Notes under the pieces: generated by a model
Databases searched by the model: none
What the model saw: the letters and a program-made list of their open reading frames with translations, nothing else
What the model was told of the DNA's origin: nothing
Program-made: the position numbers and the translations under genes
Shown here: positions 1,358 to 43,025 of the stretch, one piece after another
Position numbering within the stretch: position 1 is the stretch's first letter
How the letters are laid out: each line of letters starts with the position of its first letter
Virus record (IMG/VR): IMGVR_UViG_3300046471_000246
Span: 1 to 45,564 of that record
Direction: 5' to 3' (one strand)
DNA length: 45,564 bases
Source of the DNA: a virus

Positions 1358-1401
1358 CTGATGAACAAAGCAATTTCCGATCTCTCTTCGCACACCCCGA
1401 T
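1358..1401 (+). repeat. attL: left attachment-site copy (5' end of mutS)
   Basis: Bases 1367-1401 are identical to 42991-43025 (35 bp, beginning AAAGCAATTTCC and ending CACACCCCGAT). With one mismatch (C at 1366, T at 42990) the match extends left to CTGATGAA, 44 bp in all. The core encodes the MutS N-terminus [13 protein letters not shown]. An intact tyrosine recombinase and a complete prophage lie between the copies, so this is the integration-generated direct repeat. Confidence 0.93.
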
Positions 1402-1489
1402 TGTGCTCAGGTATGAGAACGGATTCACCCTCAGAGGCCCGCTAGCTGGGGCCTCTGAGCATTTTGGATGTAGACGCAACGTAACTTAA
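1361..1489 (+). pseudogene. mutS: mutS 5' stub left at attL
   Basis: The original mutS start ATG AAC AAA is retained here, but after 13 MutS codons the frame runs into prophage DNA and stops at 1487-1489. The resulting 42-codon ORF keeps [13 protein letters not shown] and then reads IVLRYENGF of phage origin. It cannot make a MutS domain. It marks where the native mutS promoter now points, so transcripts from that promoter would enter the prophage left arm and meet the hairpin at 1430-1459. Confidence 0.85.
1430..1459. terminator. strong hairpin just inside attL (terminator-like)
   Basis: CTCAGAGGCCC at 1430-1440 and GGGCCTCTGAG at 1449-1459 form a perfect 11-bp stem with an 8-base loop. It is followed by CATTTTGG, only a short T run, so termination strength is uncertain. 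It would shield the prophage left arm from transcription entering from the native mutS promoter. Confidence 0.5.
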
Positions 1490-1520
1490 AGGGCATTAAG
1501 TGGCATAGAACGGCGTACGC

Positions 1521-1541
1521 TTTGCCCCATTTTTGCCCCAT
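1521..1541 (+). repeat. tandem TTTGCCCCAT repeats, candidate integrase arm-type sites (left arm)
   Basis: TTTGCCCCAT occurs at 1521-1530 and again at 1532-1541. A third identical copy is in the right arm at 42946-42955. Short direct repeats on both sides of the att core at tens to ~150 bases are typical of arm-type integrase-binding sites in tyrosine-recombinase phages. Binding itself is inferred. Confidence 0.55.
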
Positions 1542-1717
1542 GCCAATTGCAGAACGGGCAGTTATTCCACCTACGACGGGGTGGCCGCGGCGCTGGACTT
1601 GGCTGATAAAACCTCTCGCCTTATCCACTCCCGACCGCCGCCCGACGATGACGCCTAATAGAAAGAAGCCCTGGCTTCGCCACTGGGGAGCGACCACTGC
1701 AAGTCGTAGGAGTTAGC

Positions 1718-1843
1718 ATGAGTTTTGCGCAGGTTAATGAGATGATCGAAGTCAACGATCTCCTAGAGAGCAACGGGCTGATCAATGCAGGGCATGAGCT
1801 GTTGCAAATTCGGCCGGGCTGGACTGGGGACAGCACACATTGA
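1718..1843 (+). CDS. small hypothetical protein, 41 aa
   Basis: An ATG at 1718-1720 follows TAGGAG at five bases. The 41-residue product (MSFAQVNEMIEVNDLLESNG at the N-terminus) is acidic and helical in appearance and ends at 1841-1843. It is too short for a firm family call. It is the only short frame in 1490-1980 with a good ribosome-binding site. The frame upstream ending near 1654 has coding-like composition but no start. Confidence 0.4.
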   Translation: MSFAQVNEMIEVNDLLESNGLINAGHELLQIRPGWTGDSTH

Positions 1844-1980
1844 ACGCTGCTTGACTGCAAGCCAGGCTCAGGTACCTCGACCTTTGACAACGTGTCGTAA
1901 CGCTCGCCGCTCAAGTCTGTAGAAAAAACCAAGCGCAAGACTTACCCTTAAGTTTTCCTCCACTACGATAGGGATATACG

Positions 1981-3813
1981 ATGGCCGGCTCTGCCCTTAC
2001 CGCTGCTTTCCTAGTCAAACTCCTCACCCCCGTGGCGACCGATCTATACGCAAGCGCGAAAGGACAAGTAAAGCAAGAGCTTTCCAAGTGGAATACTAAA
2101 AGGGGAATTCAGAACATGGCCACAACCTTATCCCAAATAGATAAGGTTAAAACCATATGGTCCCCTGAACTTGAAAAATCTTTAAGCGAGATTTACTACC
2201 CATCCGCTTTGATCATCCAGGGGAAACGAACCGTTATAGACGATATCAGTGAACTGCCACAGGGAAATCTTGTTATCGAAGGTATAGTCGGACAAGGGAA
2301 ATCAATGTTTATGCGACATATTGCCGCATCGATGGTGGCTGCACCCAACATCACTAGGATCCCTGCCTTTATCGAATTACGCAACATAAGTAAACGGCGA
2401 AGCCTATCCAGCTTAATCAGCTCTTTCATTAACTCACTGAGCGCTAAACACACTGCAGAAACATTTGAATACTTAGCATCGTCGGGAAAAATGGCTTTAA
2501 TCCTGGATGGCTTTGATGAAATACCTAGCAACTGCATCAGTGAGACGATAGTTGAACTTCAGACGCTTCAAATCAGCCATCCAGATCTCAAAATCATCAT
2601 CTCAAGCCGCCCTCAAAGTCATATCCAAAATGCTGCCGGTCTTAAAGTAGTCAAACTAGCGGAGCTGTCCGACTCTGACTATGACCCATTCCTCATGAAG
2701 CTGATTACAGTTACCAGCAAACGAAATGAAGTTCTAGGAGCGTTATCAGATTGCGCTACAAGCATCCAAGGTATCATTGTGACGCCTTTAATGCTAACTC
2801 TTGTAGTTATTGTATATCAAACAGAAAAAGAAATTCCTTCGACACTATCGGGTTTTTTCGACCGGCTGTTTGGTGTGGTTTTCGCTAAACACGACAGGCT
2901 TAAGGCAGGTTTCAACAGACAGCACCATAGCGGGCTTTCGGAAGAGCAGCTGAAAAAGCTGTTCGAGATATTTTGCTTCATGGCCATACAACACGGCCTA
3001 GGCAGATCAATGAGAGAGCAGGTTTTTAACAAAACCTTTGAGCAATCTGTAAATTTTGCCCCAGAGTTGCAATGCCCGATCGAGGGTTTTAAGAAAGACA
3101 TCATAAATGTCGCGTGCCTCATCATCGAGGAGGGCATGGACATCAGGACCTTTCTCCATAAAAGCATTTTAGACTACCATGCGGCTGCATTTGTGTGCAG
3201 CCTGACCGAAGCCCAAGCAAAACGATTCTACACAGCTGCGTATGTAAATTACGATCGATGGGAACACGTCCTCAACTTCCTCGAATCAATTGATAAGCTT
3301 CGCTATGGCGAGCACTATATCATTGACAACATCCCGAATGCGCTGGAGAGTCTTAGATCATTGATAGCATCTCAAGACCAACAATTACTTATTAACTACA
3401 TTGAGACGATCGCACCCAACGCTGAGGCGGAATTCACCGGCAGTCTAATGACCAAATACACGAGAACTGTGCGCAACAACGGGGAGTTAGACAAAATAGT
3501 TTCAGACGCGCTACCTAGAGCCGTATTCGCCATGTGCGGCGACGCTTCACGCGACGAAGTGGCAAGAGTCGCCCTTCGTACCGGACAAGATTCTGACAAC
3601 AAAAATGTTATACCTCTCAGAGTTTTGATTGGCGAATTAGGCTACGATCACATTCTTAAAGCCTTAAAACGAGTCGAATTCGACCAAGAGGCTAGGCTGC
3701 TCAAGTTCCAAGATTTTGTAAAGGCCGAGAAGCTGAAGGATAGTCTGTTTATCGATATGCTTGCTGATCCGAACCTACCGAGAAAAGAAAGAAAGGGTAG
3801 GAAAATTAGTTAA
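1981..3813 (+). CDS. NACHT-domain STAND NTPase, candidate anti-phage protein
   Basis: The 610-residue product has the hallmarks of a NACHT P-loop ATPase: Walker A GIVGQGKS at residues 101-108, Walker B LILDGFDE at 173-180 with the acidic pair typical of NACHT proteins, and a sensor-like strand KIIISSRP at 204-211. An N-terminal segment of about 90 residues precedes the ATPase, and roughly 350 mostly helical residues follow. Bacterial NACHT proteins (bNACHT) are known antiphage sensors acting by abortive infection; that role here is inferred from architecture and location. The gene is alone on its strand, visibly AT-richer than phage structural genes, and abuts a tRNA-Gly fragment, suggesting horizontal cargo. 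No N-terminal effector domain could be recognised. The ATG at 1981 follows AGGG. Confidence 0.8.
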   Translation: MAGSALTAAFLVKLLTPVATDLYASAKGQVKQELSKWNTKRGIQNMATTLSQIDKVKTIWSPELEKSLSEIYYPSALIIQGKRTVIDDISELPQGNLVIEGIVGQGKSMFMRHIAASMVAAPNITRIPAFIELRNISKRRSLSSLISSFINSLSAKHTAETFEYLASSGKMALILDGFDEIPSNCISETIVELQTLQISHPDLKIIISSRPQSHIQNAAGLKVVKLAELSDSDYDPFLMKLITVTSKRNEVLGALSDCATSIQGIIVTPLMLTLVVIVYQTEKEIPSTLSGFFDRLFGVVFAKHDRLKAGFNRQHHSGLSEEQLKKLFEIFCFMAIQHGLGRSMREQVFNKTFEQSVNFAPELQCPIEGFKKDIINVACLIIEEGMDIRTFLHKSILDYHAAAFVCSLTEAQAKRFYTAAYVNYDRWEHVLNFLESIDKLRYGEHYIIDNIPNALESLRSLIASQDQQLLINYIETIAPNAEAEFTGSLMTKYTRTVRNNGELDKIVSDALPRAVFAMCGDASRDEVARVALRTGQDSDNKNVIPLRVLIGELGYDHILKALKRVEFDQEARLLKFQDFVKAEKLKDSLFIDMLADPNLPRKERKGRKIS

Positions 3814-8906: not shown

Positions 8907-11612
8907 TTAAGCGAGTGAATAGCGGACGTTGGTGAGGTCGATAACTTCGCTGGCTGCGAAACCACCTTTTGCCCCAACCGAGAAGACACCTGTACTGAGC
9001 GCAGACAGGTACGGCGTTGTTGCTGTCGGGCTGAACAGCCCGAGCAGTAGGGTGTCCGTGCTGGCCAAGTAGCTTGGTCGATAGCCCGCCGGCATCGCTG
9101 TTAACTGGCGAAGTGTGTTCATGCCGAGCGCGGCGTCGATCGTCACCTTCCCCCGAAACTCGACGCAGTCATCAATGACCCGGTATTGCGGCTTAGTGGG
9201 CCCCGCGGTGAAACCTGCGGTCAGCACCATGTCGATCCAAGCGCCCGCGTTCAACACAATCCAGGCGGTGCCATTGGAGCGCTGACGCTGAGGTCCACCC
9301 GGAGTGTCCGTCACATCGATCTCACCGCCTGGATTGGCAGTAGCCGACGGGCGTGTAGCGATTGTGAACTGGCCGGGGCGGATAGCCGCCGTGACCGTCA
9401 AGCCGCCGCTCAGCGCCAACTGCGCAATGGTCGTCAATCCCGTCGCACGACTCACGGCCAAGGGGACGCTGAGATAACTATTGGTGTCGCTGTACCGCAC
9501 AAGCTGAAAATCTGAGCCGGCGTTGCTGCCGGCTTCTGCGTCTGCGGACTTCAGAAGATCCCAGCGACGCGATGTACCCGTGGCCAGTCGGAGCGTTGCT
9601 GACTGCCCGGCGTCAGCGTCCACTGACAGGATGGTGGCGAGCGCTTGACCGTTTCGAGTTACACGAGTGTCGCCGGCCACGGCGAGAGTCGCGCTGGCGT
9701 CGACGGCCGACTGACCGATGCCCACCTTGCCGCCACCCGAAGCCAGAAGCGCGTAAGAAGTTGACGCAGCGTTGGTCCCCGCGCAGTTGAACAGGTGGTC
9801 GGTTTGGGTCGTGTTGTTGCCACGGTTGATCGCGACCTGAACGCTACCGGCAGTTGTGATGTTCCGATGCAGGCGGATAAGAGCTGAGTCGGTTGCGTTG
9901 ACGGGTACATCGTCGATATCAATCTGCCCACCAGCACCAGCCTTAACGTGGCGAAGGTTGCCACCAAGACCGCCGATGACGTTGAGCGGGCTGGCCGACC
10001 CAGCGATTAGGTTACCGGTAGCAGCCAGGTTGCCGCCCACGTCGACCTTTGAACCGGTAGCCGCGCCACGCCCCAGCCCTACGAGAAGGTTGTTGGCCTC
10101 GTTGATCGTGGCGGCGATACCCCGCGAAACACTGCCGGTCACAGTGTTCTCGAAGTTCATGTACGTGGCTTGGTTTGTGTCGGTGTGGTCGGACGCGGCG
10201 TAAACGCTAAGCGACGCGGCGTTCGTTAGAGCTTGGCCCGCAGCCCGAACCCCGGCAAACACGAACTGGCCGAGGCGGTCGGTAGCGATAAGCGGCATCG
10301 GGGCTGCGATGGTGCCCCGCCCCTTACCCAAGATAACCTCTGTGACGCCGAAGTTATCGATGTAGCTGCGCATGTTTAGCGAGATGCCGTTGTTCGCCTG
10401 CGCGACAATGCTGCCACCCAGTGTAAGCCCCGCGCCTATTGTGGTTGAGCCCGCAACACTTAGATTCCCCGTAGCAGCCGGGAAATTCGTGTTCAGCTTC
10501 GCGTCGATCTGACCCTGTGCTTTACCGAGGCCCGTCACCGGCGTATCAGTGCCGAGGATTGGGGAGTTAATTGCGGCCAATCCTGTCATCGGTGTTTGGC
10601 GCACCCGAGACTGTAGAAAGTACTGATTACTAGTGCCCTCGGGGAGGCTATCGGTATCCGGGTTCGCCGTTGCGTTCGCAGCCACCCCGCCGAGTTTCGT
10701 TTTCTCCGCGTCGGTGTACGCGTTGGTGTTCGGGTTCGACTCGTACAGCGTCTTGACCTGCGCGGCGGTGACACCAGCAGTCGGGCCGTTGTACACCCAT
10801 TTCGAATCGTTGTTGTCCCACAGGTACTGGATTACGTCGGTGCCGGTGGATGGATCGACGAACGCATAGTCGCCGATGTTCGCCGTGGGCACCGCTGATT
10901 GAAGCGCAGCCAGCGTAGCGAACATGCCTCGGAAGTGATTCGGGTCGAGGCCGGCTAGCTTGGCCTTTTCCAGCGCGGTGTAGTTCTCATCGGACAATTG
11001 CTTGCCGGCGACGGTGGCGACCTTCGCGTCGAGCGCATTCTGCAAGCCCGCCACGGTGCCGATGGCCTGGGTACCGGTGTGATTCCCGCGCGCCAGCAAA
11101 AAGGAATCGGATTGGTTGGCCGTCGCACCAGCAGCTATCGCGTTCAACTTGCTCAGCAGCGCGCCGGTGAAGTCATTGGCGGACAAGCCGTAACCGTTTA
11201 CCTTGTCAACCTTGAGGCCCAGCGCTTGAACCAGATCAGTCTGATCTGCAAGTAAGCCGCCGATCGCGCCCCATGTCGGAGCCCCTGCCACCCTCCCCCA
11301 GCCGCCGGCCGTGCGTCCGTACAAGATCCCGTCTGCCAGGTTCAATGCAACACGGGCACCAAAGAAGGACCAGTGCCCGTCGAGGAACCGCGCGACCTTG
11401 CCAGCCTGCCCAGCCCAAAGCCCGGTCGGAGCCGTGCCCACCACATGCCGATCGCCTTCGGCCGGTACCGCCGGCGGCGCATTGGTATTGACCGACAGGA
11501 CGGCCAACTGCACCAGGCCGTCGATGGCAATGATCGCTTCGTTAAGCCCCGCTGCCGGGTCAATCGTGTTTTCCGGCACAAACGGAATGGCGTTGTTGAT
11601 GCTAACCGTCAT
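8907..11612 (-). CDS. tail fibre protein, 901 aa
   Basis: The ATG at 11610-11612 is chosen because it forms an ATGA overlap with the stop of the preceding tail gene; the frame is open further upstream but that is inside the neighbour. Residues 1-120 contain the DUF2793-like region (PFVPENTIDPAAGLNEAI, later GLWAGQAGKVARFLDGHWSF). A long low-complexity shaft follows with GNHTGTQ and AAGATANQSD-type motifs typical of phage fibres, and a GQFTIATRPSATANPGGE segment lies near the tip. It probably binds the host surface receptor. Length and repeats suggest a trimer. Confidence 0.88.
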   Translation of the reverse strand: MTVSINNAIPFVPENTIDPAAGLNEAIIAIDGLVQLAVLSVNTNAPPAVPAEGDRHVVGTAPTGLWAGQAGKVARFLDGHWSFFGARVALNLADGILYGRTAGGWGRVAGAPTWGAIGGLLADQTDLVQALGLKVDKVNGYGLSANDFTGALLSKLNAIAAGATANQSDSFLLARGNHTGTQAIGTVAGLQNALDAKVATVAGKQLSDENYTALEKAKLAGLDPNHFRGMFATLAALQSAVPTANIGDYAFVDPSTGTDVIQYLWDNNDSKWVYNGPTAGVTAAQVKTLYESNPNTNAYTDAEKTKLGGVAANATANPDTDSLPEGTSNQYFLQSRVRQTPMTGLAAINSPILGTDTPVTGLGKAQGQIDAKLNTNFPAATGNLSVAGSTTIGAGLTLGGSIVAQANNGISLNMRSYIDNFGVTEVILGKGRGTIAAPMPLIATDRLGQFVFAGVRAAGQALTNAASLSVYAASDHTDTNQATYMNFENTVTGSVSRGIAATINEANNLLVGLGRGAATGSKVDVGGNLAATGNLIAGSASPLNVIGGLGGNLRHVKAGAGGQIDIDDVPVNATDSALIRLHRNITTAGSVQVAINRGNNTTQTDHLFNCAGTNAASTSYALLASGGGKVGIGQSAVDASATLAVAGDTRVTRNGQALATILSVDADAGQSATLRLATGTSRRWDLLKSADAEAGSNAGSDFQLVRYSDTNSYLSVPLAVSRATGLTTIAQLALSGGLTVTAAIRPGQFTIATRPSATANPGGEIDVTDTPGGPQRQRSNGTAWIVLNAGAWIDMVLTAGFTAGPTKPQYRVIDDCVEFRGKVTIDAALGMNTLRQLTAMPAGYRPSYLASTDTLLLGLFSPTATTPYLSALSTGVFSVGAKGGFAASEVIDLTNVRYSLA

Positions 11613-13189
11613 AAGGTCACCGAGATTGCCGGGCCTAAGCCCGTGATGGAATTTTTCTGCCGCACACTGAGCGTGCCGGCGACATAGGGAAAGGTCATGG
11701 TCATGTCGATGGTGTCGTAGCTGTTCGCACCCAGCGTTAGGCGGTACCCGGTGAAGTAGCGACCCATACCCACACCCGCGCCGCCACCAAGGCGCCCAAC
11801 ACCTTGCCAAGACACTACGGCGTTGCCGCCATCGCGCACGACCTTGAGGTACGCCGGGGCCCGCTCTTGCTGCGACACGCCGGCAAACGTGACGGTAACG
11901 ACCGGCCCGTCAGCCAGGCCGTACGACGTAACCCGAAAGGTCAGCGGCCGATTCAGCTCGTACAGCTCGGCCTCGACAAACGCCAGGTCCAGGCGATCGA
12001 GGAAAACGAACCGCTCGCCGGTAACGTGCGCAACGGCCGCCGATCCTTTGCGACCGCGCAGCAAACCACCCAGCAACCATTCGGTATCGCCGATCTGTTC
12101 CACGGTTGAAAAGTTGATCAGCTCATTACCCACGATCGCCAGGTTCGTGCGGTTGAGCATTTCGGTCATGGTCGCCGGTATCAGCTCCATATCCTTGCGC
12201 AACAGCTTGACCGTCAGTGTGTTGAGGTCATCCCGGTAGTACGGCGAATGCGCAGCGCAGTCGGCCGTCAGCGCGCCCATGATCGCGTTGGAGGTGGTGC
12301 CCTCTGAATCGATCCAGTTGGCCCCGCCATCCTTGCTCAACTCGACCACAGCGCCTTGCCAGTCCTGGGTCAGGCTCGATACGGCGATGTAATAGCCCAG
12401 GGCATCGTCCGAAGACTTGAGAATGCTGGAATCGATGAATTCCATGCGCGACTCACTGGCGATCAGGCTGGGCGGTGTCGATGGCACGCCGGCCGGCACA
12501 CCCTGGATCGTCGACTGGTAAGCCGTGGCCCGGTCATAGGTCAGTTTGTAAGTTTGCTGACCTTCGTCAATCTTGCATTCGGTGATCCGTAGCCGATCAC
12601 CCTCGAACAGAATGATGTCGGCCCCGGTCAGCTGAATGAAGTTGTCCGCCAGGGCAAATTCGAAGTCGCCGCGCTGCTCTTCAATGGCGATCTTGTGGGA
12701 CACCACCACCGATCGCGCCGCGTCATCCGCGCGCATGATGACCGTCGTCGCGGTTGAGCTTTCCCCGGTCGCGCGATTGTCAAAGCTGCGATCGGATGTT
12801 TGCTTGTCGGTGGTAAGCCCGCCGTCGGTGTCGTAATACTCCAGGTTGATCACGCGAGGGACGGTAATGCTGTCCCCGCGGCTGACCCGCTCGACCTCCT
12901 TGCCATCGTCGATCAGATCCTGCCGGGTGATCGTGGCGACCGGATCGCCGCCCCGTGGCACGAAGTGGATCACCCCGCCATGGTTTGACGGGTCAAAGGT
13001 GAACACGCCTGACAGCGTGTTGATGGCGGCCGCCACCGAATGCGCGCTGGTGGTCGAAAACCCGTCGACATAACCTTCCAGCAGGCTGACATCAAAACCA
13101 CCCAGCGGAATCCCGGCGCGCTCGCATAACTCGGCGACGATCGAGGACAGCGCCCAGCTGCACAACAGCGGGTCGTAGGCCTGGCTCAA
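11609..13189 (-). CDS. phage tail tip protein, C-terminal half of a gpJ/GTA-type host-specificity protein
   Basis: The 526-residue product opens abruptly with SQAYDPLLCSWALSSIVAEL, a region that in related siphoviruses is internal to a much larger tail tip or central fibre protein (Phage-tail_3 type). It continues with strand-rich segments (LSGVFTFDPSNHGG, GGLLRGRKGSAAV) that end in a fibronectin-like part. The start GTG/ATG near 13187-13189 overlaps the stop of the gene before it. The N-terminal portion of the same kind of protein appears to be at 14701-15711, so in this phage the tail tip seems to be encoded in separate pieces. Confidence 0.75.
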   Translation of the reverse strand: MSQAYDPLLCSWALSSIVAELCERAGIPLGGFDVSLLEGYVDGFSTTSAHSVAAAINTLSGVFTFDPSNHGGVIHFVPRGGDPVATITRQDLIDDGKEVERVSRGDSITVPRVINLEYYDTDGGLTTDKQTSDRSFDNRATGESSTATTVIMRADDAARSVVVSHKIAIEEQRGDFEFALADNFIQLTGADIILFEGDRLRITECKIDEGQQTYKLTYDRATAYQSTIQGVPAGVPSTPPSLIASESRMEFIDSSILKSSDDALGYYIAVSSLTQDWQGAVVELSKDGGANWIDSEGTTSNAIMGALTADCAAHSPYYRDDLNTLTVKLLRKDMELIPATMTEMLNRTNLAIVGNELINFSTVEQIGDTEWLLGGLLRGRKGSAAVAHVTGERFVFLDRLDLAFVEAELYELNRPLTFRVTSYGLADGPVVTVTFAGVSQQERAPAYLKVVRDGGNAVVSWQGVGRLGGGAGVGMGRYFTGYRLTLGANSYDTIDMTMTFPYVAGTLSVRQKNSITGLGPAISVTL

Positions 13190-13881
13190 GGGGGAACCTC
13201 CATCATGAATTGCAGCCGTAGCTGATCGCTGAAGCCGATACGCAAAATGCCGCTGGTGATGCCGGTGGCCAGCAACCGCTCCACCAGGTACCGATCGCGC
13301 TGCTGCCGGTAGTACAGGCCGCCATCACGCACGTAGGCCAGAATCACATCGCTTCTGCTGGTCTGCGTCTGCCGCTTGTCATCCAGTAACACCTTGGGTG
13401 TGATCGCCGAGGCCGGCAGATCCGTGACCACCTGAGCCGAGGCCACTGGGTCATACCACCGAATTTTTGCCCGACCAGCCTGCACGAACGACAGAACCGG
13501 GCGCATGTTCTGATCGAAGCTGAAACTGATCTCGGTGATATCTGGCGCTTCGTACAGCACGAACTCGGCGGTGTTCTGAGCGCTCAGCAGCACCTGATTC
13601 CTGATCAGCCGCGCACGCCACACCTGGTACTGGTTTCCCTGCGTCGAATCGTTGAGCGCGATGCCGCCGTCTTCGTAGTCGATGTAGCGGGTTACCGCCA
13701 TCGCACGCGCGCCCGTGAAGTTGCCCGGCACCACTTGGCTGGACAGCACGTTGTCCGGCAGCATTACAAAATCCGCCTCGACCAGCTGTAACGGATCGTA
13801 AATTTCAACTCTTGCAAGTTGGTTTTCATGATGTTTGGCGTAAATCCAAACTGGAAAAACGTCGGACCACAGCACACACAT
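13186..13881 (-). CDS. tail tip-associated protein, start uncertain
   Basis: The well-conserved part begins at about ARVEIYDPLQLVEADFVMLP and ends at 13186, overlapping the next gene by four bases. The only in-frame ATG upstream is at 13881, which forces a 118-base overlap with the preceding gene. Another ATG at 13830-13832 is one base out of frame. If the AAAA run after it had one more A, the protein would begin MKNQLARVEIYD. A one-base loss in the homopolymer, or a sequencing error, is therefore plausible. Function is probably structural, in the tail tip. Confidence 0.6.
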   Translation of the reverse strand: MCVLWSDVFPVWIYAKHHENQLARVEIYDPLQLVEADFVMLPDNVLSSQVVPGNFTGARAMAVTRYIDYEDGGIALNDSTQGNQYQVWRARLIRNQVLLSAQNTAEFVLYEAPDITEISFSFDQNMRPVLSFVQAGRAKIRWYDPVASAQVVTDLPASAITPKVLLDDKRQTQTSRSDVILAYVRDGGLYYRQQRDRYLVERLLATGITSGILRIGFSDQLRLQFMMEVPP

Positions 13882-14696: not shown

Positions 14697-14700
14697 TACA

Positions 14701-20999: not shown

Positions 21000-21021
21000 C
21001 TGGTAAAGACACATCGGACTG

Positions 21022-23615: not shown

Positions 23616-23618
23616 GGT

Positions 23619-23810: not shown

Positions 23811-23820
23811 ATTGATTTCC

Positions 23821-24667: not shown

Positions 24668-24682
24668 GTGTTTCTCCATACG

Positions 24683-24703
24683 AAAAAGGGGCTCTAGAGC
24701 CCC
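24683..24703 (-). terminator. terminator-like hairpin after the major capsid gene
   Basis: The perfect palindrome GGGGCTCTAGAGCCCC at 24688-24703 is followed on the minus strand by five T residues. It lies just after the capsid gene in the middle of the structural operon, so it could lower expression of distal genes relative to capsid. Confidence 0.7.
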
Positions 24704-24729
24704 AAGGATTGAACCGCCGGAATGTGTTT

Positions 24730-27771: not shown

Positions 27772-27778
27772 ATTGAGC

Positions 27779-31996: not shown

Positions 31997-32325
31997 CCCC
32001 TCTTCCTCTTCGAAAACAGACCCAACACAGAATTTTGACTTCCCGACACAAACCCAACACAGGAAAAACTCTTTAAAACCAAACGTTTATTAATATTTGT
32101 GTTGAGTGTGTTGGGTTTGTTGGGTTTATAGGTCCTCGCATAGAGATTTTTTTCCTCTCCAAATGAATCAAAAAATACGTCGCAGGCACGCGCGCGCGCG
32201 CAAACCCAACACACCCGACACAGTGCCCGTTTAGCCCCGAATTCATTGACCTTTACCTGTGTTGACTTGGCAATATCAACCCGACACACACCCAACACAC
32301 CCAACACACTTTTATTCGGACTCAT
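31993..32325 (-). CDS. hypothetical protein encoded across the iteron region, 110 aa
   Basis: This frame starts with an ATG that shares ATGA with the primase stop (32322-32325) and ends in a TGA that shares ATGA with the next start (31993-31996). The double coupling is the main evidence that it is a gene. Because the DNA is full of CCCAACACA-type repeats, the protein is repetitive (VLGVLGVC, ALCRVCWVC, YKPNKPNTLN). It contains no recognised domain. It could be an origin-binding or simply origin-carrying gene. Confidence 0.55.
   Translation of the reverse strand: MSPNKSVLGVLGVCRVDIAKSTQVKVNEFGAKRALCRVCWVCARARACDVFFDSFGEEKNLYARTYKPNKPNTLNTNINKRLVLKSFSCVGFVSGSQNSVLGLFSKRKRG
32021..32308. repeat. 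iteron cluster CCC(A/G)ACACA, candidate replication origin
   Basis: CCCAACACA or CCCGACACA occurs at 32021, 32042, 32053, 32205, 32214, 32280, 32291 and 32300, with an inverted copy at 32107-32115 and a partial one at 32116-32124. An AT-rich stretch (TTTATTAATATTTG, 32086-32099) and an alternating CG run near 32190-32201 lie between the clusters. Iterons, AT-rich DNA and an adjacent primase-helicase gene are the ingredients of a phage origin. Confidence 0.65.
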
Positions 32326-34997
32326 GCTGCTATCGCCTTGACGTGATCCCACGAATCCACGTGCCACCCGGCAAGCTTGGCTTTCGCACGCCAATCGTCG
32401 ACAAGGGCGCCAAGCGCTGCTGCCTTCAATGATGGGGGCTGGGAAGCCTCAGGATCATTGGGAAAAAAGAACGCACCGAAACGACGGTTATTACCCTCGG
32501 TCCATGGTATCGAGCGGGTTTTATCGACTTCAGAGCTGACGAATAGTGAAAACTTGGTCTGGCTCATCACATGTTCTCTATTGCGCTGGCACCACTCAAC
32601 GAACAGCGCGTACAGATCGCTACTTAGGCAGGCACCCCAAAGATTTCGCCCAAGCTCCCCGTATTTCCACAGGAACAGAAAGGTTTGCCAGCCAGCCCGA
32701 CTGAGTGCCACTAACCGCTCACGGGCGTCAGTGCTTGGCGGCCGGGTGCGCTCGTTGAAATCACCCAGGTCGACACGCAGTAGCCAGGAGTACAGAGCAG
32801 CCACACCGCCATCTAACAGCTCGCGGCCGATTGCCTTCTGGCGATCCACCGGCAGCGTGTCTAACGGCCACATGACCAACATCCGGCGATCACTCTCGCT
32901 GATTGGCCAAGGCAGAATTTCGTTGCTGAGAAATACAGCGTTCATATGGTTGGATTCCTCCCAGCCATTGATGAACTTTGATTCCATGCGTACGGTTTTC
33001 CCGGTTACCAGGTGCTTGATCTTGCCCACCTGGTTGTAACGCTGATCGCGGCTCACAACCTCTTCAAACACAGCCCAAAGCTTACGGCTTTGCCATGCGT
33101 TGAAATTACTCTCCAACTGCGTCTGCCCAACCGTTGCCGCGTATTGCCCGTACAAAGCACCAAAAGTGTCGGCGAACAAAAGGCTCTTCCCCGACCCCTC
33201 CATCGTCGAATGCATCAGAACGGCGGTGTCCATCTTTGCGCCGAGATACTGGAGCGGATAAGCGAGCCAACGCGTCAGCCATGTTGCCGCATCGGTGTCG
33301 TGGTTACAGAGGAAGGAGATTAGCCACCGAAGGTTCGCGCAGGCGTCATCACTTTCGATAGGTTCCAAAGGCAGCCCCTCGAATGTGTTGATGTATACCG
33401 ATGGATCCTTGGTCATCGTTGGGTCAAACACGATGTGATCGACATCAACCACACGCCGATCTGCGCTGTTCAACCAGAGCGGGTAGGTATCACCTAGAGC
33501 CATCTTCACAGCGCCTTCGGGCACGCGCCGCTTTTTCTCTCTGTCCCAAACATCCTTCGTTCCGTCGATGTAGACATATCGATCAACCGGCCCAAGACCG
33601 AGGGCACCGCCCTTCCTGCCGGTCATTTTGCGGGCTTGCTCACTGGCCCGGACCAGTTCATCCGAAACAAGCTTTTTGCGCGAATCCTCCAACCATAGCT
33701 TTACCAGGGGTCTACCGATCAGGGCTTCAAACGCTGCCTTCTTCATCCCTCGAGCCTTATCGCCGTCCCACACCTGCGTTGTGCCTTCGACCAACGCAAA
33801 GCGGCGAATTACCTGTTCAAGGGTCAGTCCCTCCCCCGCCCCCCCGTCAGCTGCAGGAGCGGCCTCGCTTACGGCGCCGGGCTCTGCTTCGGAGACTGAT
33901 GGGGTCGGGGGAAGGTCGTTTGGGTAAGCTCGCGAGGTTTGCATTCCGAGCATCCGCGCAGCTTCTTTCACGGCCCGGGACTGGTCGCCGCCATGTTCAA
34001 GCAGGCAAAAAACTTCAAAGGCGTCATTCTGGTGACCGTTAGCCAGCGGATCCGCGCCATGATGGGAATACACTTTCCCATCGCTGATCGTGATGCCTGG
34101 GAGCCCCGTACTACTCTGCGGATAAAGCCATTTGCTGCCACGCTTGATGTAACCATGGGCGCGCAACAACTCGGCCACGTCATGGCCTCGGTTGAATTCA
34201 TCAATCACCGAGGGACGATCACCAGATGGTGCAGGGCGTGGCTTCGATTTAACCGTAAGCTTCTGCGCTTTTGGTGCCCATGGACAGGCGGCTTCTGCAT
34301 CGCGCTTGAACAGATCCCAGTTTTGCCAGATGGCCAGCAATTCGGATGTGAGCACAGGAAGCCCATCAGCAGCCGGCGGTGTTTGCCAGGTATATGGCTT
34401 ACCGGTGCCTGGGTGGATTGACGGCGGCAACACGTCCTGCACCAAGCCGGCTCGCAGCTCGAAAACCGTGAAGCGTTTGTATTGCTCAGCCTCAGCCCGA
34501 AACAATAGCTCGCGGGCGGAATCGCCGGCGTCCTTAGCTCTGTTGGCTTTGAGCATGATCGACTTATGAATCGAGCCGTCCGGATCGTTTGGATTCGGCC
34601 AGGCCAACGAATGCCGGGTCAGATCGATGTCATCAGGCAACCGAAACAGCACACGAAACCGTGCGGGATTACCGACCACCGTCGGGAACGCAACAGCCAT
34701 CGCATCCAGGTCGAGGCCCAGCAACTCGAAGAGTACGTGGCGAGTCCACTGGACATCGTCCACATCCAATGAACAGACGCGGCTTGGGCCCAGCACAACG
34801 CCGAGGTTGTGCTGCGGGTGTTTCACCCAAAAGGCTTCGGCCTTAGCCGCATCGGTGAGATATCCGCCGGGTTGATTCCAGCCCCGACCTTTCGGCGCCT
34901 TCTCACCCGGTTCGATTGGGACGAGTGCCAGGTTAAATGTTGCGATGTATTGCCGAGCCCATGCTGCGGTACTACTTGGGGTCGAACGCTCGGTCAT
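32322..34997 (-). CDS. replicative primase-helicase (prim-pol plus D5/SF3-type helicase)
   Basis: The ATG at 34995-34997 overlaps the stop of the DksA-like gene (ATGA) and gives 891 residues. Residues 1-210 form a bifunctional primase/polymerase domain (LALVPIEPGEKAPKGRGW; catalytic DVDD at about 78-81). A linker follows with zinc- or DNA-binding-like segments, then a superfamily 3 helicase with Walker A MEGSGKSLLFAD (GSGKS at 601-605) and WAVFEEV as Walker B. This is the P4-alpha/D5 class: it primes and unwinds at the phage origin, which may be the iteron cluster immediately downstream. Confidence 0.92.
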   Translation of the reverse strand: MTERSTPSSTAAWARQYIATFNLALVPIEPGEKAPKGRGWNQPGGYLTDAAKAEAFWVKHPQHNLGVVLGPSRVCSLDVDDVQWTRHVLFELLGLDLDAMAVAFPTVVGNPARFRVLFRLPDDIDLTRHSLAWPNPNDPDGSIHKSIMLKANRAKDAGDSARELLFRAEAEQYKRFTVFELRAGLVQDVLPPSIHPGTGKPYTWQTPPAADGLPVLTSELLAIWQNWDLFKRDAEAACPWAPKAQKLTVKSKPRPAPSGDRPSVIDEFNRGHDVAELLRAHGYIKRGSKWLYPQSSTGLPGITISDGKVYSHHGADPLANGHQNDAFEVFCLLEHGGDQSRAVKEAARMLGMQTSRAYPNDLPPTPSVSEAEPGAVSEAAPAADGGAGEGLTLEQVIRRFALVEGTTQVWDGDKARGMKKAAFEALIGRPLVKLWLEDSRKKLVSDELVRASEQARKMTGRKGGALGLGPVDRYVYIDGTKDVWDREKKRRVPEGAVKMALGDTYPLWLNSADRRVVDVDHIVFDPTMTKDPSVYINTFEGLPLEPIESDDACANLRWLISFLCNHDTDAATWLTRWLAYPLQYLGAKMDTAVLMHSTMEGSGKSLLFADTFGALYGQYAATVGQTQLESNFNAWQSRKLWAVFEEVVSRDQRYNQVGKIKHLVTGKTVRMESKFINGWEESNHMNAVFLSNEILPWPISESDRRMLVMWPLDTLPVDRQKAIGRELLDGGVAALYSWLLRVDLGDFNERTRPPSTDARERLVALSRAGWQTFLFLWKYGELGRNLWGACLSSDLYALFVEWCQRNREHVMSQTKFSLFVSSEVDKTRSIPWTEGNNRRFGAFFFPNDPEASQPPSLKAAALGALVDDWRAKAKLAGWHVDSWDHVKAIAA

Positions 34998-35197
34998 TTC
35001 CGCCGCTCCCGCAGCTCTTGGCAGGAAACGCACGTTTGGCACCCTAAAACCTTCTCACGTCGAAGAGCAGGAATGGGCTCATCACAGTCGTAGCAGAATT
35101 GAGCGCTGGCACGGACAGGCATCTTGGCGCGCTGCAACAAAGCCATATCAAGGAGATATTGGGCCTGATCGTTGGCAACATCTATGACGTCAGCCAT
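34994..35197 (-). CDS. TraR/DksA-family zinc-finger protein
   Basis: The ATG at 35195-35197 gives 67 residues ending in the C4 zinc finger CYDCDEPIP...CQTCVSC with RR and K in between, the hallmark of TraR/DksA-like phage proteins. Such proteins bind the RNA polymerase secondary channel and can redirect transcription. Start and stop overlap the CII-like and primase genes, so it is co-translated in the early operon. Confidence 0.9.
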   Translation of the reverse strand: MADVIDVANDQAQYLLDMALLQRAKMPVRASAQFCYDCDEPIPALRREKVLGCQTCVSCQELRERRK

Positions 35198-36085: not shown

Positions 36086-36114
36086 ACAATACACTTTGTA
36101 TTTTTTCCGTGCAA
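36086..36114 (-). promoter_or_regulatory. early promoter (PR-like) of cro
   Basis: On the minus strand TTGCAC (36114-36109), a 17-base spacer and TATTGT (36091-36086) form a good sigma-70 promoter 26 bases before the cro start codon. Operator AATACACTTTGTATT at 36088-36102 covers its spacer and -10 box. Confidence 0.8.
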
Positions 36115-36161
36115 GCTCTCAATACAGTCTGTCGATTGCCCATAAAAATACGCCCTGTATT
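36088..36161. promoter_or_regulatory. CI/Cro operator triplet
   Basis: Three AATAC-N5-GTATT-type sites lie between cro and cI: AATACACTTTGTATT (36088-36102, perfect), AATACAGTCTGTCGA (36121-36135, one half well kept) and AATACGCCCTGTATT (36147-36161, near perfect). The lambda-like arrangement of three sites between divergent regulators supports the assignment. Confidence 0.85.
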
Positions 36162-36163
36162 AT
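36136..36163 (+). promoter_or_regulatory. candidate PRM-like promoter, leaderless cI
   Basis: TTGCCC (36136-36141), a 16-base spacer and TATTAT (36158-36163) lie so close to the cI ATG at 36171 that transcription would start at or next to the start codon. No ribosome-binding site is present, as in lambda cI from PRM. Confidence 0.55.
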
Positions 36164-36170
36164 TTTGGGC

Positions 36171-36812
36171 ATGAGCGAATGGTATGAAATAGCTAAAAAA
36201 ATCATGGAGGCCCAGGACATAAGCCAAGAGCAGATGGCTGAACGCCTGGGCGTCACACAAGGCGCCGTGGGACATTGGCTGAACGGAAAACGGGAGCCGA
36301 AGCTGGAAATGATCAATCGCCTGCTGGCTGTCCTTGGCGTCCCGGGTTTGGCAATAATCGTTCCGTCACCCGAAGGAGGCGAAGGCGTTAGTCCGCTACC
36401 ACCACCAGATCGGCTATACAGATATCCGGTCGTGAGCTGGGTTACCGCTGGCGATTGGGCAGAAGCGGTAGAGCCGTTTGAGCCAGGTGCCGCAGACAGT
36501 TACGAGCTGACTGACTACAAAGCTAAAGGCCCAGCGTTCTGGTTGAAGGTGCGAGGCGACTCCATGACCTCGCCCATCGGGCAGAGCGTGCCCGAGGGCA
36601 TGTTAATCCTGGTTGATACGGGCATTGAGCCAAGCCCGGGGAAGCTTGTAATCGCCAAGCTGCCAGAGAGCAATGAAGCTACATTCAAGAAGCTTGTAGA
36701 GGACTCAGGACAGCATTTCCTTAAGGCCCTGAATCCTGCTTACCCCATGATTCCTCTCAACCCAAATTGCCGCTTAATCGGCGTTGTAAGCTTGGCAAAG
36801 ATGACTCTCTAG
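36171..36812 (+). CDS. CI-type prophage repressor with S24 autoprotease domain
   Basis: The 213-residue protein has an N-terminal helix-turn-helix (DISQEQMAERLGVTQGAVGHW, residues about 16-36, recognition helix TQGAVGH) and a C-terminal LexA/CI peptidase S24 domain: cleavage Ala93-Gly94 in VTAGDW, nucleophile Ser131 in RGDSMTSP and general base Lys163 in VIAKLP. RecA filaments should trigger self-cleavage and prophage induction. It is transcribed divergently from cro and followed by its own terminator. Confidence 0.95.
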   Translation: MSEWYEIAKKIMEAQDISQEQMAERLGVTQGAVGHWLNGKREPKLEMINRLLAVLGVPGLAIIVPSPEGGEGVSPLPPPDRLYRYPVVSWVTAGDWAEAVEPFEPGAADSYELTDYKAKGPAFWLKVRGDSMTSPIGQSVPEGMLILVDTGIEPSPGKLVIAKLPESNEATFKKLVEDSGQHFLKALNPAYPMIPLNPNCRLIGVVSLAKMTL

Positions 36813-39743: not shown

Positions 39744-39940
39744 TGAGCCTCCCACGCTGGGTAATGATCAATCGCGCATCGGAACTCACCGGCTATAGCG
39801 AGGACGCAATCCGACACAAGGTGAAAAACGGCACTTGGGCCCAAGGCCGCGTTTGGAGGAAAACTCCAGACGGGCGCATCGCAATTAACATGACGGAGTA
39901 CGACAAATGGGCCGAGAGCGCGCCGCAGGAAGCAGCCTAG
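39743..39940 (+). CDS. xis: excisionase (recombination directionality factor)
   Basis: The ATG at 39743 follows GGAGAGG at six bases. The 65-residue protein (LPRWVMINRASELTGYSEDA, IRHKVKNGTWAQGRVWRKTP, DGRIAINMTEYDKW) has the winged-helix excisionase pattern and is encoded directly upstream of, and overlapping, the integrase gene. It should bias the integrase towards excision. The preceding CI-controlled operon links its synthesis to induction. Confidence 0.87.
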   Translation: MSLPRWVMINRASELTGYSEDAIRHKVKNGTWAQGRVWRKTPDGRIAINMTEYDKWAESAPQEAA

Positions 39941-41145
39941 ATATCGAGTTAGCCAAGCATAAGGGTCTTGAACTGCATGGAGGCAACATACGAATAGTCT
40001 TTATGTGGCGCCGCAACCGATATCGTCAATCTCTCGGCCTCCTTCCGACCAAGGCTAACATCAAGCACGCAGCCCAATTGCGGGCGGCTATTCTTCATGA
40101 AATCAAGACCGGGACGTTTGATTTTGGCCGCCACTTTCCGAACTCGCTGAACACCCAGAACAAAAGCTCTCGCAGGGATGAGCCACTAAGGTCATTGCTA
40201 GCTCGATACAAGGTGCTGAAGGCGGTAGACATCACGCCGATGACTGAAAGCAAGTATGCCGTCGCCTTGGATATATGCGTCGAGCTGGTGGGGATTGACC
40301 GCTTTGCCAGCATTCTTCTACCTGAAGACGTGCAGCTCTTGCGAACGCAATTGATCACAGGTCGGGCCCCCTCCACCAGCAATCACTACTTGGCTACGTT
40401 TGCGGGTTTTCTGGCTTGGTGCGAAACAAACGGTTATGCACGGGCCGGGCTCGCCGCTGCATGTATCCGTTTTGCTATGAGTGTAAAAGATCCAGATCCG
40501 CTGACGCGGGATGAGTTTGATCGGCTGCTCACGAAAGGTTGTCTACATGTGCAGGACAGCGCGGCAGTAACACTCGCCGTTTACACCGGCTTGCGCCCAG
40601 GAGAGCTTTGCGCCCTCGCAGTTGAGGACATAGATCTCGAAGCAGGCCTGATCAACATCACTAGGGCTATCACTGCGGAAGGTGATTTTAAAGTGCCAAA
40701 AACCGAGAAAAGCCGATCGGTCTTGCTGATGCCACCCGCAATTGAAGCGTGCAAGCAATTGATTGGCCTGGTCGCCGATCTTAAACCTGTGAAAGTCCGC
40801 GTACATCAGAATCGTCACGAAAGCCGGGTTGACCAAGTGACGCCGCTGCTATCTCCAAGCACTCAAGCGCGCAAGGATATAATCAATACCTGGTTTAAGC
40901 CAACAGCTTGGAATAGTAAATGGGGAAATATCCAGCGAAGGGCAGGAATCAGACTTCGCCGTCCCTATCAAACGCGGCACACCTACGCATGCTGGTGCCT
41001 AACAGCACGGGGAAATCTTGCATTCATCGCTAAGCAGATGGGTCATAAGGATTACACCATGCTTGTGGAAGTTTACGCAAAGTGGATGGACGATGAATCA
41101 CCTAGAGAACTTGAGCGCATCTGGGAGAAACTAAGAAATCAATAA
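39907..41145 (+). CDS. int: tyrosine recombinase integrase
   Basis: The 412-residue protein has an N-terminal arm-binding domain (GLELHGGNIRIVFMWRRNRY; DUF3596-like), a core-binding SAM-like domain (about residues 90-190) and a catalytic domain with Arg230 in TGLRPGEL, Lys265 in VPKTEKSR, Arg357-His358 in YQTRHTYA, His380 in QMGHKDY and nucleophile Tyr390. The usual histidine before the second arginine is Tyr354, a tolerated variation. It overlaps xis by 34 bases and is the likely catalyst for integration at the mutS-derived att sites. Confidence 0.96.
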   Translation: MGRERAAGSSLDIELAKHKGLELHGGNIRIVFMWRRNRYRQSLGLLPTKANIKHAAQLRAAILHEIKTGTFDFGRHFPNSLNTQNKSSRRDEPLRSLLARYKVLKAVDITPMTESKYAVALDICVELVGIDRFASILLPEDVQLLRTQLITGRAPSTSNHYLATFAGFLAWCETNGYARAGLAAACIRFAMSVKDPDPLTRDEFDRLLTKGCLHVQDSAAVTLAVYTGLRPGELCALAVEDIDLEAGLINITRAITAEGDFKVPKTEKSRSVLLMPPAIEACKQLIGLVADLKPVKVRVHQNRHESRVDQVTPLLSPSTQARKDIINTWFKPTAWNSKWGNIQRRAGIRLRRPYQTRHTYACWCLTARGNLAFIAKQMGHKDYTMLVEVYAKWMDDESPRELERIWEKLRNQ

Positions 41146-41164
41146 ATCAAGCGCAAATGATAAC

Positions 41165-41776
41165 TTAACGCCCAAGTTTGGCGAGCTTCTCTCTGCGTGC
41201 TTCTCCAGCGGCACGCACGCCAGCTCTAACTTCCTCCGCACTATCTTCAATCAAATTATTAAGTGCAAAAGAATGAATATCGTAAATCTGAAAAGGCAAG
41301 ATAAGTGTTCTATAGCAACCCAAGAAGAAAAACCCTGCAGCAAAAAAAGCCGCCGCATCCTTATCCAACGAAGTCTTTACTTTAATGGCTACCATAGTCA
41401 ATAAACAGAATGCCAGACACATCAAAAATGCAAAAAGCGTATTTATCTGAGAGAGCAGAATATACTTTACCTTTAGAACATAGCGAAGCGTTTGTTCATA
41501 GGTGAGCTTTCCTAAGTACTGACCTCTCCCCGAAAAAAGCATCGCAGTAATAACAAACCCAAATATTAATCCGGAAAATGCTATAACTGCATTGAGCAAA
41601 CCTTCATCTATAAAATCCGTACCAAAAAGACTTAAGCACGACCCAATTATGAAAACAACAGAATTAAATATCAAATAAACGGAATTACTTTGCGCCGAAC
41701 GCGCCACATCCGCTAATTCGTTGTTAACTACCTGGACGTTCCTTACCTCTTCGGGCAGTAGGTATGAAAATTTCAT
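41165..41776 (-). CDS. multi-pass membrane protein of the right-arm cargo pair
   Basis: The 203-residue product has four hydrophobic segments: about residues 33-52 (YLIFNSVVFIIGSCLSLFG), 63-82 (VIAFSGLIFGFVITAM), 108-131 (SQINTLFAFLMCLAFCLLTM) and 140-160 (AAFFAAGFFFLGCYRTLIL). A charged C-terminal tail with NNLIEDSAEEVRAGV and ARREKLAKLGR follows. The start ATG 41774-41776 lies inside the upstream gene; an alternative TTG is at 41783-41785. It is AT-rich and convergent with int. It may be a membrane effector for the soluble partner; no family is recognised. Confidence 0.65.
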   Translation of the reverse strand: MKFSYLLPEEVRNVQVVNNELADVARSAQSNSVYLIFNSVVFIIGSCLSLFGTDFIDEGLLNAVIAFSGLIFGFVITAMLFSGRGQYLGKLTYEQTLRYVLKVKYILLSQINTLFAFLMCLAFCLLTMVAIKVKTSLDKDAAAFFAAGFFFLGCYRTLILPFQIYDIHSFALNNLIEDSAEEVRAGVRAAGEARREKLAKLGR

Positions 41777-42845
41777 TATCTGCAAGCGCTCCGAATTCGT
41801 CTAAAATCCTTTTTCCATTACGTCCGGGTGTACACAACTCTTCGAGATAGACACTCATTTTGTGAGCCAGTTCAGCTCTATCTGGGTTCTTCCCACCAAC
41901 ATCAGCGACTTCAATAGTTCGCTTAATCTTGAATTTGGAAAGACCACGAATTGAGGAGCCATCCGCCAAATGAATGATAACACTATCGATTTCATCCTGC
42001 TGCTGCGCTTCGTCGTAAGCTTCAATTACTTTTTCAATGGGCAATCTATCCTTAGATCTCCATTCAACAGTCATCATCCCATTGCTCGGCATATATCCTT
42101 TGACGCCAGAAAGCATGCCTAGTAATTCGCTTTCGGCATTAGGGACCGACTGACTCAAGCCCAAAGTAAAACCAGTCGCGCCATTTCCACGTTCGATCTC
42201 GCTTTTGAGTCCGGACGAAATGGCGTCAGTAAAGAAAAAATTAAATCTTCTGCCTAGCTGATGCTCTCTAACCAATCTATTTAGATACCGTTGTATAAAA
42301 TTAATCCCCCCAGCACCCCGCGTACTTTCAATGATCGCTGACTGACCAAACACCAATACATGGGATATTTGAATCAGCTCTCTAGCATCCTCTTCACCAT
42401 CGACTTTTACGTCGATCACAGCATTTTCTTGATGTGGATCAGGAGTTAAGGTTTGCGGAATAGTGCCCGGCTCGTAAGACCAGACCTCGAACAAAACTGT
42501 ACTCTCGTCTAAATCTTGAAAGTTGTTAAAGAAATAACATTGCTGAGGGACACGTGTCCCATCTGCAAGCGCAACCATCTGTTCCCAGATTCTGGAACCA
42601 ACGGTTGGACAGAGATCCCGCACTGTCCTCATCAAATCAACCAACGTAACCTCTTCACCGGGTTTATGCGCTGAGAATTGTACTGGTTTGAGTTGTAGGG
42701 TACGACTGATAGGCTTACGTGCCATAGGTGATCCTTCAGGGAATTCTAATGCACCCTGAATACCGCGCCATCCGCCAGATGTTGCCTGACGAGTGAGAGC
42801 CATCCAAGGCGTCAAATTGACAGCAGTATTTCGCGGCTTGCCCAT
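41724..42845 (-). CDS. unrecognised soluble protein of the right-arm cargo pair
   Basis: From the ATG at 42843-42845 (preceded by GAGGGAGATT) the product is 373 residues; a second good start at 42723-42725 after GAAGGATCACC would give 333. The N-terminal 40 residues are basic. The rest contains [60 protein letters not shown] and [20 protein letters not shown], then [20 protein letters not shown] and [20 protein letters not shown]. No known motif is seen. It overlaps the membrane protein gene by 53 bases and lies next to attR, in reverse orientation to the phage genes, typical of moron defence cargo. Confidence 0.65.
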
Positions 42846-42934
42846 GTTAATCTCCCTCACAGGGGTCAAGTCGCAAGCCAACATAGCGATATGCTGGCAT
42901 TTTTCCAAGATTAATTCAGCTAGCAAAAAAGCAT

Positions 42935-42955
42935 TACGCCCCAAATTTGCCCCAT
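42935..42955 (+). repeat. candidate integrase arm sites, right arm
   Basis: TTTGCCCCAT at 42946-42955 is identical to the two left-arm copies, and TACGCCCCAA at 42935-42944 is a degenerate one. They lie about 35 bases before the att core. Confidence 0.55.
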
Positions 42956-42981
42956 CACCTATTGCAAAAACCTCTAAGTAC

Positions 42982-43025
42982 CTGATGAATAAAGCAATTT
43001 CCGATCTCTCTTCGCACACCCCGAT
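42982..43025 (+). repeat. attR: right attachment-site copy (start of intact mutS)
   Basis: The 35-bp core 42991-43025 is identical to 1367-1401; with CTGATGAA and one mismatch it extends to 42982. The prophage thus supplies the ATG and first codons of mutS together with everything upstream. Confidence 0.93.

Follow-up and report, generated by a model that had tools for sequence, protein, structure and literature searches.

Prophage integration hands over the start of mutS in a Pseudomonas lysogen, and the displaced start appears to be the decayed junction of an older phage

Introduction

Elements inserted in the 5' end of mutS have already been described: the available excerpts of Chu et al. 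(2017, mBio, PMC5296598) place them in the HTPMMQQ motif of the gene in hundreds of Beta- and Gammaproteobacteria, including Pseudomonas putida F1, with further cases in Vibrio splendidus 12B01, Escherichia coli 536 and Burkholderia multivorans CF2, and report that such an element supplies mutS with a start and a promoter, and that the P. putida F1 element was seen to excise with the reading frame kept intact. Here we describe a prophage at this site in IMG/VR virus record IMGVR_UViG_3300046471_000246, the whole of which (45,564 bases, hereafter the window) was analysed; the flanks are those of a Pseudomonas-type host, with recA and cinA to the left and mutS to the right. We consider it highly probable that lysogeny hands over the front of mutS, that is its start and the DNA upstream, whilst keeping the MutS protein, and that the front displaced in the process is itself the decayed junction of an older phage at mutS.

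Comparable habits are known at other genes. The SpyCI elements of Streptococcus pyogenes are phage-like elements at the 5' end of mutL, most of the strains tested were mutators, and in strain Manfredo, which carries the decayed SpyCIM5, a promoter inside the broken integrase gene (int) drives mutL (excerpts of PMC3430984). Islands and prophages at dusA have an integrase family committed to the 5' end of one conserved gene, to which they bring new 5' sequence with putative promoters (PMC4482086, in the part available). The available part of PMC2647930 describes prophage-01-like loci without integrase and head genes.

The att Junctions in the mutS Start

The junctions and the reading frames that they create are:
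1361..1401, plus strand: attL, the old mutS start, codons 1-14 (exact core 1367-1401)
42985..43025, plus strand: attR, the phage-supplied mutS start, codons 1-14 (exact core 42991-43025)
42985..45564, plus strand: mutS, a hybrid phage/host gene of 859 amino acids with all five MutS domains (Pfam MutS I-V)
1361..1489, plus strand: orphan mutS stub of 42 codons (open reading frame list)
1430..1459, plus strand: hairpin of 11 pairs with a weak T tract within the stub, a possible terminator (terminator-like-site scan)

Thirty-five identical nucleotides at 1367-1401 and 42991-43025 cover mutS codons 3-13 and the first two bases of codon 14, and if one mismatch is allowed (codon 2, AAC in the host and AAT in the phage) the match extends back through TGATGAA. 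The core ends inside codon 14, between HTP and M, which places the insertion in the HTPMMQQ motif; the displaced start lies at the far side of the element, as the stub at 1361-1489, and the new start and upstream DNA of mutS come from the element. The original prediction, made from the letters of the window, had put a prophage within the first codons of mutS with a 35-bp core of codons 3-14, and had the MutS frame intact in the lysogen with the start, codon 2 (AAT) and upstream DNA supplied by the phage; the identical copies at both ends, the open frame 42985-45564 (859 aa, five domains) and the comparison of the junctions uphold each of these points. When the host flanks were joined in silico, as excision would join them, the same 859-residue MutS resulted, codon 2 alone differing, and silently.

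We take this to be a real att site because empty sites exist in relatives (L115-L122) and both junctions were found in 22 further lysogen genomes, in at least three of which (drafts G002, G019 and G022) the two junctions lie on different contigs. The identity anchored at the right end of the core is 5-23 nt in these 22 lysogens, and therefore the crossover lies at the HTP codons, with the phage giving codons 1 to ~11-12; the 35-bp identity of the window, read earlier as the recombination core, is not that of the family. The displaced host start is of a short type in 9/22 lysogens and already phage-type in 13/22. In Pseudomonas sp. QS1027 (G004, loci L389/L159, which also holds L076) attL and attR are only ~10.7 kb apart and the displaced mutS stub is out of frame, so that mutS would be frameshifted by excision, as in V. 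splendidus 12B01.

The 42-codon stub and the hairpin that had been predicted past the old start are both present, but the hairpin lies inside the stub frame and is inconstant in relatives. One terminator-like site was found in the scan against 1.2 expected in shuffles, and the 100 nt after the core of the window's attL fold at a z of -2.5. A terminator after the stub was rejected as a constant feature, z being -2 or lower in 8/23 attL when compared to single-base shuffles. The stub peptide was likewise rejected as a conserved product: it varies from 13 to 67 codons, is variable past the core and is out of frame in G004.

The Integrase Family and its Probable Arm Sites

The integrase and the strict twin motifs of the window are:
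39907..41145, plus strand: tyrosine integrase with Arm-DNA-bind_2 and Phage_integrase domains (profile matches; relatives at mutS)
1524..1540, plus strand: arm site of the phage, a GCCCCA-N5-GCCCCA twin lying 122 nt past the core (motif search)
42938..42954, plus strand: phage arm site, twin GCCCCA-N5-GCCCCA, its arms 47 and 36 nt before the mutS ATG (motif search)

Integrases were sought using the window's integrase as the sole query, which gave 70 loci in viral contigs and 34 in genome contigs, 32 of the latter titled Pseudomonas or Stutzerimonas. With the window this makes 105 integrase-bearing loci, and a mutS core lies downstream of int in 93 of them (89 attR and four attP-type junctions, L005, L011, L014 and L068); the 12 loci without a downstream core, 11 viral ones whose contigs end 1.5 kb or less from int and one from a genome contig, were left out. 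The four attP-type junctions suggest that free or circular phage forms exist in the family. The window integrase, which has relatives at mutS, is itself 1.8 kb from the gene, and amongst the 93 loci int lies at most 60 nt upstream of mutS on the same strand in 23, and at 79 nt to 4.4 kb in the others. The int stop overlaps the mutS start as TGATG in L050, L071 and L100; thus int and mutS may be translationally coupled in those lysogens.

Strict twins occur in the window exactly twice, at 1524 and 42938, and the motif recurs at +120 to +122 in all 23 attL (22 genomes and the window), once with a mismatch. The 872,283 nt upstream of mutS in 90 genomes hold no strict and three loose twins. Their occurrence at both ends of the phage, together with the spacing, makes the twin motifs very probable arm sites of the integrase.

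The Phage-Supplied Front of mutS

An in-frame ATG is present in 93/93 phage-side junctions, at the same codon in 92 and one codon upstream in L062, which was excluded from the following set. For codons 2-10 of 74 distinct phage heads, the ratio of nonsynonymous to synonymous polymorphism (pN/pS) is 0.34 in the mutS frame, and 0.77 and 1.47 in the other frames; column shuffles gave a mean of 1.01 with 0/200 as low, and the 27 nt upstream of the start gave 0.96-1.11. As the phage heads are related by descent, and some may contain host stretches, these values describe the data against controls and do not amount to a formal test. The pattern indicates that the phage-borne front is kept usable as mutS by selection, which would act on the phage copy.

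A simple scan for sigma70-type promoters found none on either mutS front of the window, and the Shine-Dalgarno match is 4 nt on the phage side (TAAG at -10) and 3 nt on the displaced front, in agreement with the earlier statement that no strong ribosome-binding site or promoter is visible on the phage side. A 5-nt match was found in 6/34 host fronts of the short-start class defined below and in 1/93 phage fronts. For the conserved CTAA(G) we prefer the interpretation of a weak Shine-Dalgarno sequence; a literature search on the idea of a leaderless mutS mRNA gave nothing useful. In the window there are 136 nt between the start of the nearest leftward gene (42848, chosen by eye) and the mutS ATG.

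The original prediction had seen in this geometry a phage-controlled mismatch-repair switch, with mutS expression lowered or altered in the lysogen and restored by excision, and a mutation rate that tracks the state of the phage. In favour of a switch stand the new upstream DNA, in which no promoter is visible and the ribosome site is weak, the more frequent 5-nt Shine-Dalgarno matches of short-start fronts, the precedents of V. splendidus 12B01 and SpyCI, and the out-of-frame stub of G004, where excision would break mutS. However, the displaced front of the window is no better equipped, having no promoter found and a 3-nt ribosome-site match in place of 4 nt; the phage-borne codons are constrained as mutS, with frame and start kept in all 93 junctions; MutS is identical with and without the phage here; and phage-type fronts persist in many genomes that have no full integrase in reach. 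We therefore regard a switch as improbable and, from the frames, the constraint and the persistent fronts, favour preservation of the gene over its being switched off.

A plainer alternative, compatible with the handing over of the front, is integration into a safe harbour with mutS level and mutation rate equal on every front. The preserved frame, start and protein speak for it, whilst the upstream DNA is wholly different between fronts and int is within 60 nt upstream on the same strand in the 23/93 loci mentioned; given these two facts some difference in mutS level is likely, and equality on every front is a real possibility, albeit one that we somewhat doubt.

The Displaced Front as a Probable Decayed Junction

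Two features of the DNA just upstream of the old mutS start bear on its origin:
1315..1331, plus strand: decayed twin arm site with 2/12 mismatches, whose second arm lies 35 nt upstream of the old mutS ATG
1206..1361, plus strand: decayed integrase C-terminus, 51 codons, ..RGNLAPIEKAIGHVD.. (open reading frame list, integrase alignment)

These were examined against 119 genomes, sampled evenly within the genus to which G009 belongs (Pseudomonas sp. Root562, which holds L082). By an arm-region score 85/119 genomes have a phage-type front and 34/119 a short-start front; 60 of the 85 phage-like fronts score above every one of 29,296 control ATGs and 25 do not. With a matrix built from 51 phage arms the host arm of the window scores 18.5, a value reached by 0/29,296 control ATGs. 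Twin arms with at most 2/12 mismatches and at the phage-type distance from the ATG are found in 48/85 phage-like and 0/34 short-start genomes and at 18/29,296 control ATGs; even at four or fewer arm mismatches the short-start count is 0/34.

The frame 1206..1361 reads RGNLAPIEKAIGHVD where an integrase reads RGNLAFIAKQMGHKD in the alignment, and its TGA stop overlaps the old mutS ATG as TGATG, like int in the living relatives L050, L071 and L100. A profile of integrase tails matches the window at an E-value of 0.0047, with no window match in the reverse-strand or shuffled controls. At E <= 0.01 it matches 19/85 phage-like and 0/34 short-start genomes (reverse-strand 0, shuffled 0), and at E <= 0.1, 35/85 and 0/34 (reverse-strand 1, shuffled 0); two of the matches, L209 and L236, adjoin a full integrase. 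Plain integrase remnants are seen in L293, L181 and L318, and in L293 a frame-damaged integrase end lies just upstream of the arms with cinA 1.5 kb away. The window's displaced front holds twin arms at the phage spacing together with an integrase tail and no full integrase; the tail by itself is weak evidence.

Several observations on this tail count against the interpretation: Pfam found no match in the frame 1206..1361, the profile match is short (15 residues) with a weak E-value, and the shuffle test was marginal and uneven, with a best score of 54 over 16 integrases against a maximum of 53 in 1000 shuffles scored on six integrases. The integrase-tail call of the window is thus weak alone and is carried by its relatives. 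Taken with the arms, it appears that the displaced front, previously considered the native upstream DNA of the host gene, is phage-derived, a decayed int-attR junction.

Distribution of the Fronts in the Genus

The two front classes also differ in protein and spacing. In the 34 short-start genomes, which have no arm sites, MutS usually opens with M(S/T)DLSxHTP or a similar sequence, and in the 85 phage-like genomes it usually opens with 17 residues followed by (V/L)SDLSSHTP, or with a 13-letter form. The gap between cinA and mutS is 75-202 nt in nine short-start genomes, 466-504 nt in the eight rows nearest the window, and longer in most other measurable phage-like genomes. For 60 genus genomes ~14 kb upstream of mutS was covered: 35 have a phage-type front without a full integrase of the family, six have one with it and 19 are short-start. 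The other 30 loci had flanks of 1.5 kb, an integrase farther upstream lying beyond view.

A tree was built from 1.5 kb of mutS with 91 labelled rows and seven others, the set comprising 90 of the 119 genus genomes (16 kb fetched for 60 and 3.4 kb for 30) and the window; the eight rows labelled as having an integrase are a lower bound, and one, L191, was labelled by hand, its genome G011 being that which holds L084. The two front types need 12 changes on this tree and short-start forms are basal. The window falls in a set of 57 rows, of which 49 are phage-like with no integrase seen, five phage-like with an integrase and three short-start.

Some features of this survey weigh against an origin of host fronts from phages, or at least blur it. 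The class border of -34.5 was fixed after the scores had been viewed; L200, L166, L256 and L189 score deep within the tail of the controls; some arms of the training set scored low once they were omitted from it (minimum -10.2); the phage heads are non-independent samples; and L343, from the same genome as L278 and with a long start and no arms, was counted as short-start. The distance from cinA to mutS reaches 1.2-1.5 kb in four short-start genomes, and cinA lies beyond the DNA covered in 11/25 short-start genomes. On the tree, the outgroup sits on long branches and support is weak at the deepest nodes, the 57-row clade has a support of 90 (not starred), and three short-start genomes (L170, L171 and L306) sit inside the phage-like clade, which means that a further exchange of fronts has taken place.

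The short-start fronts of L170, L171, L306 and L331, the last outside the phage-like clade, have in common a AGTATTAGAC block and GTCAAATAGACA, and possibly come from a different element family.

At the level of the order, the best 29 loci besides L344 were taken from 95 genomes, at least one of them (L347) from the genus sample; 26 were readable, of which 23 lack arms and three (L346, L353 and L360) have arm-like DNA upstream. The family may thus reach beyond the genus sample.

The direction of transfer could in principle be reversed, a host mutS promoter being the source of the phage arm region and the host fronts being ancestral rather than fossil. Phage and host fronts do share a TTTGCC block and CTAA at near-equal spacing from the ATG. 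However, the twin motif also stands on the other phage end, in 23/23 attL, as expected for an integrase arm site; arms are absent from 34/34 short-start genomes and from 23/26 readable order loci; and host fronts hold decayed integrase tails and extra DNA between cinA and mutS. We consider such a reversal very improbable. For an earlier exchange of fronts, by phages at mutS, the arm sites, the integrase tail, the gene spacing and the tree all argue.

Upstream of mutS in L285 and L294, two loci with phage-like fronts, stand tail genes of tailocin type: eight of ten proteins searched (five from each locus) match PHROG tail families, with sheath, baseplate and fibre in L285 and tape measure, baseplate and fibre assembly in L294. 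These two loci suggest that the tailocins at mutS-cinA came in with the mutS integrase family.

Gene Content of the Prophage and its Flanks

The remaining features of the window are:
1..273, minus strand: recA 5' part, host, cut by the window end (Pfam RecA, 4.4e-38)
361..864, minus strand: cinA, host (Pfam CinA, 4.4e-53)
965..1111, minus strand: 48-codon frame between cinA and the putative fossil junction (Pfam: no match)
1981..3813, plus strand: NACHT-domain protein, an accessory gene adjoining attL (Pfam, 1.8e-9)
8907..29542, minus strand: structural block including tail proteins (PHROGs; intervening genes partly searched)
17615-20935, minus strand: tape measure (PHROGs)
24730-25935, minus strand: major head protein (PHROGs)
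25932-26576, minus strand: head protease (PHROGs)
26560-27879, minus strand: portal (PHROGs)
27779-29542, minus strand: large terminase (PHROGs)
32322..35042, minus strand: DNA primase (PHROG 1156, 5.8e-128)
36096..36812, plus strand: phage repressor with helix-turn-helix and S24 peptidase domains (Pfam and PHROG profile matches)
41165..42848, minus strand: a pair of leftward accessory genes lying in the int-attR slot (start 42848 chosen by eye)

Terminase, portal, major head protein, tape measure, repressor and integrase are thus found in one element, which by this gene content is a complete-looking temperate tailed phage of Pseudomonas. A near search of 24.6 kb of the prophage against phage records gave short matches only, to 12 records. 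The NACHT protein (1981-3813) is kin to two PHROG families of unknown function, and 3' of its gene, at ~3837-3884, 44-48 nt have 93-94% identity to MT835913 and PP232116 (the very end of the latter). Frames resembling 965..1111 seem readable in the cinA-mutS gaps of L165, L185 and L310, judging by conservation by eye.

The space between int and attR is a variable accessory slot (L005-L105; 41165-42848 in the window). The int-mutS gap exceeds 300 nt in 66 loci, 65 of which hold an open frame of at least 100 codons, and the frame nearest attR is directed away from mutS in 62 of these 65. The two leftward genes of the window had no match in Pfam, PHROG or PADLOC, and PADLOC gave zero matches for ten window proteins; the larger gene (374 codons), which has no family match, is related to the cargo of L013, L042 and L086. 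Of the slot cargo, ten proteins from ten families were searched: that of the largest family (23/65, L007) has a PIN_8 domain, L058 is like LmuA, and L047 is like the AriA/PtuA-type ATPases. The slot may be a defence slot.

Discussion

On the reading that we prefer, in which lysogeny hands over the mutS front, the tyrosine integrase has as its target the HTP(M) codons, which are conserved close to the mutS start, and attP carries a replacement front made up of the twin arms, the weak TAAG ribosome site, TGATG and codons 1 to ~12 in frame. Integration thus joins the phage start to the host mutS body and leaves the severed host start as a dead stub, with the MutS protein unchanged here. Transcription of mutS in the lysogen would come by read-through from int where int lies 0-60 nt upstream, and in the window from the short gap between the leftward accessory gene and mutS, with weak translation through TAAG. 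An earlier round in the same host lineage would have left the displaced front as a decayed int-attR junction, the body of the older phage being gone, and a front once handed over could be fixed for good by decay or domestication of the element, for example beside tailocin genes. As we read these genomes, lysogeny has repeatedly replaced the front of mutS, often with lasting effect.

Through mutS the mutation rate is set and recombination between species is held in check. It is tempting to go further and propose that in most of a Pseudomonas genus successive phages have permanently replaced both the start of mutS and its promoter, and that the amount and timing of MutS, and with them the mutation rate, are set by domesticated phage DNA and differ among short-start, fossil-front and lysogenic strains; taken together, these two proposals are speculative and we think them unlikely to hold in full. 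Related species nevertheless offer a natural experiment, with one gene behind short-start, fossil and live-phage fronts, and the effect of a phage front on mutation rate becomes directly testable. The tailocin hot spot between mutS and cinA would be linked to an integrase family, on the two loci examined, and old insertions may be recognised by a sequence mark consisting of twin GCCCCA arms, an RGNLA tail and TGATG. Phage insertion at the mutS start was already known, and it is the layering and spread of fossil fronts that appear new: no report of fossil mutS fronts was recognised in a limited literature search, which was without subscription papers and the supplements of Chu et al. (2017).

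The geometry of the locus is that of the elements of Chu et al. (2017), as far as the available excerpts go: insertion in HTPMMQQ, a host stub left behind, and a start and upstream DNA supplied by the element, with the integrase near mutS. The window is thus a further member of their class, the likeness drawn here being one of position. No 2-bp scar is predicted for the window, and unlike V. splendidus 12B01, in which the displaced start is regarded as ancestral host sequence (PMC5296598, in excerpt), the displaced start here appears to be a decayed phage junction. For this the nearest precedent is strain Manfredo (PMC3430984, available part), a close parallel to the fossil int-mutS junction. 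SpyCI, which the original prediction had offered as the analogue, does share a site at the 5' end of a mismatch-repair gene, but it is more distant than the mutS elements: SpyCI elements lie at mutL of a Gram-positive host and most of the strains tested were mutators, whereas the window has its site in mutS, holds a full phage, and no evidence of silencing was seen in it. The dusA elements parallel the habit of the window integrase at a different target gene, going by the available text. Finally, the tailocin loci of the fluorescens complex (PMC2647930, PMC7815802 and PMC8319346, in the parts available) occupy the same chromosomal place as the window element which, unlike the prophage-01-like loci, is a phage with head, packaging and integrase genes.

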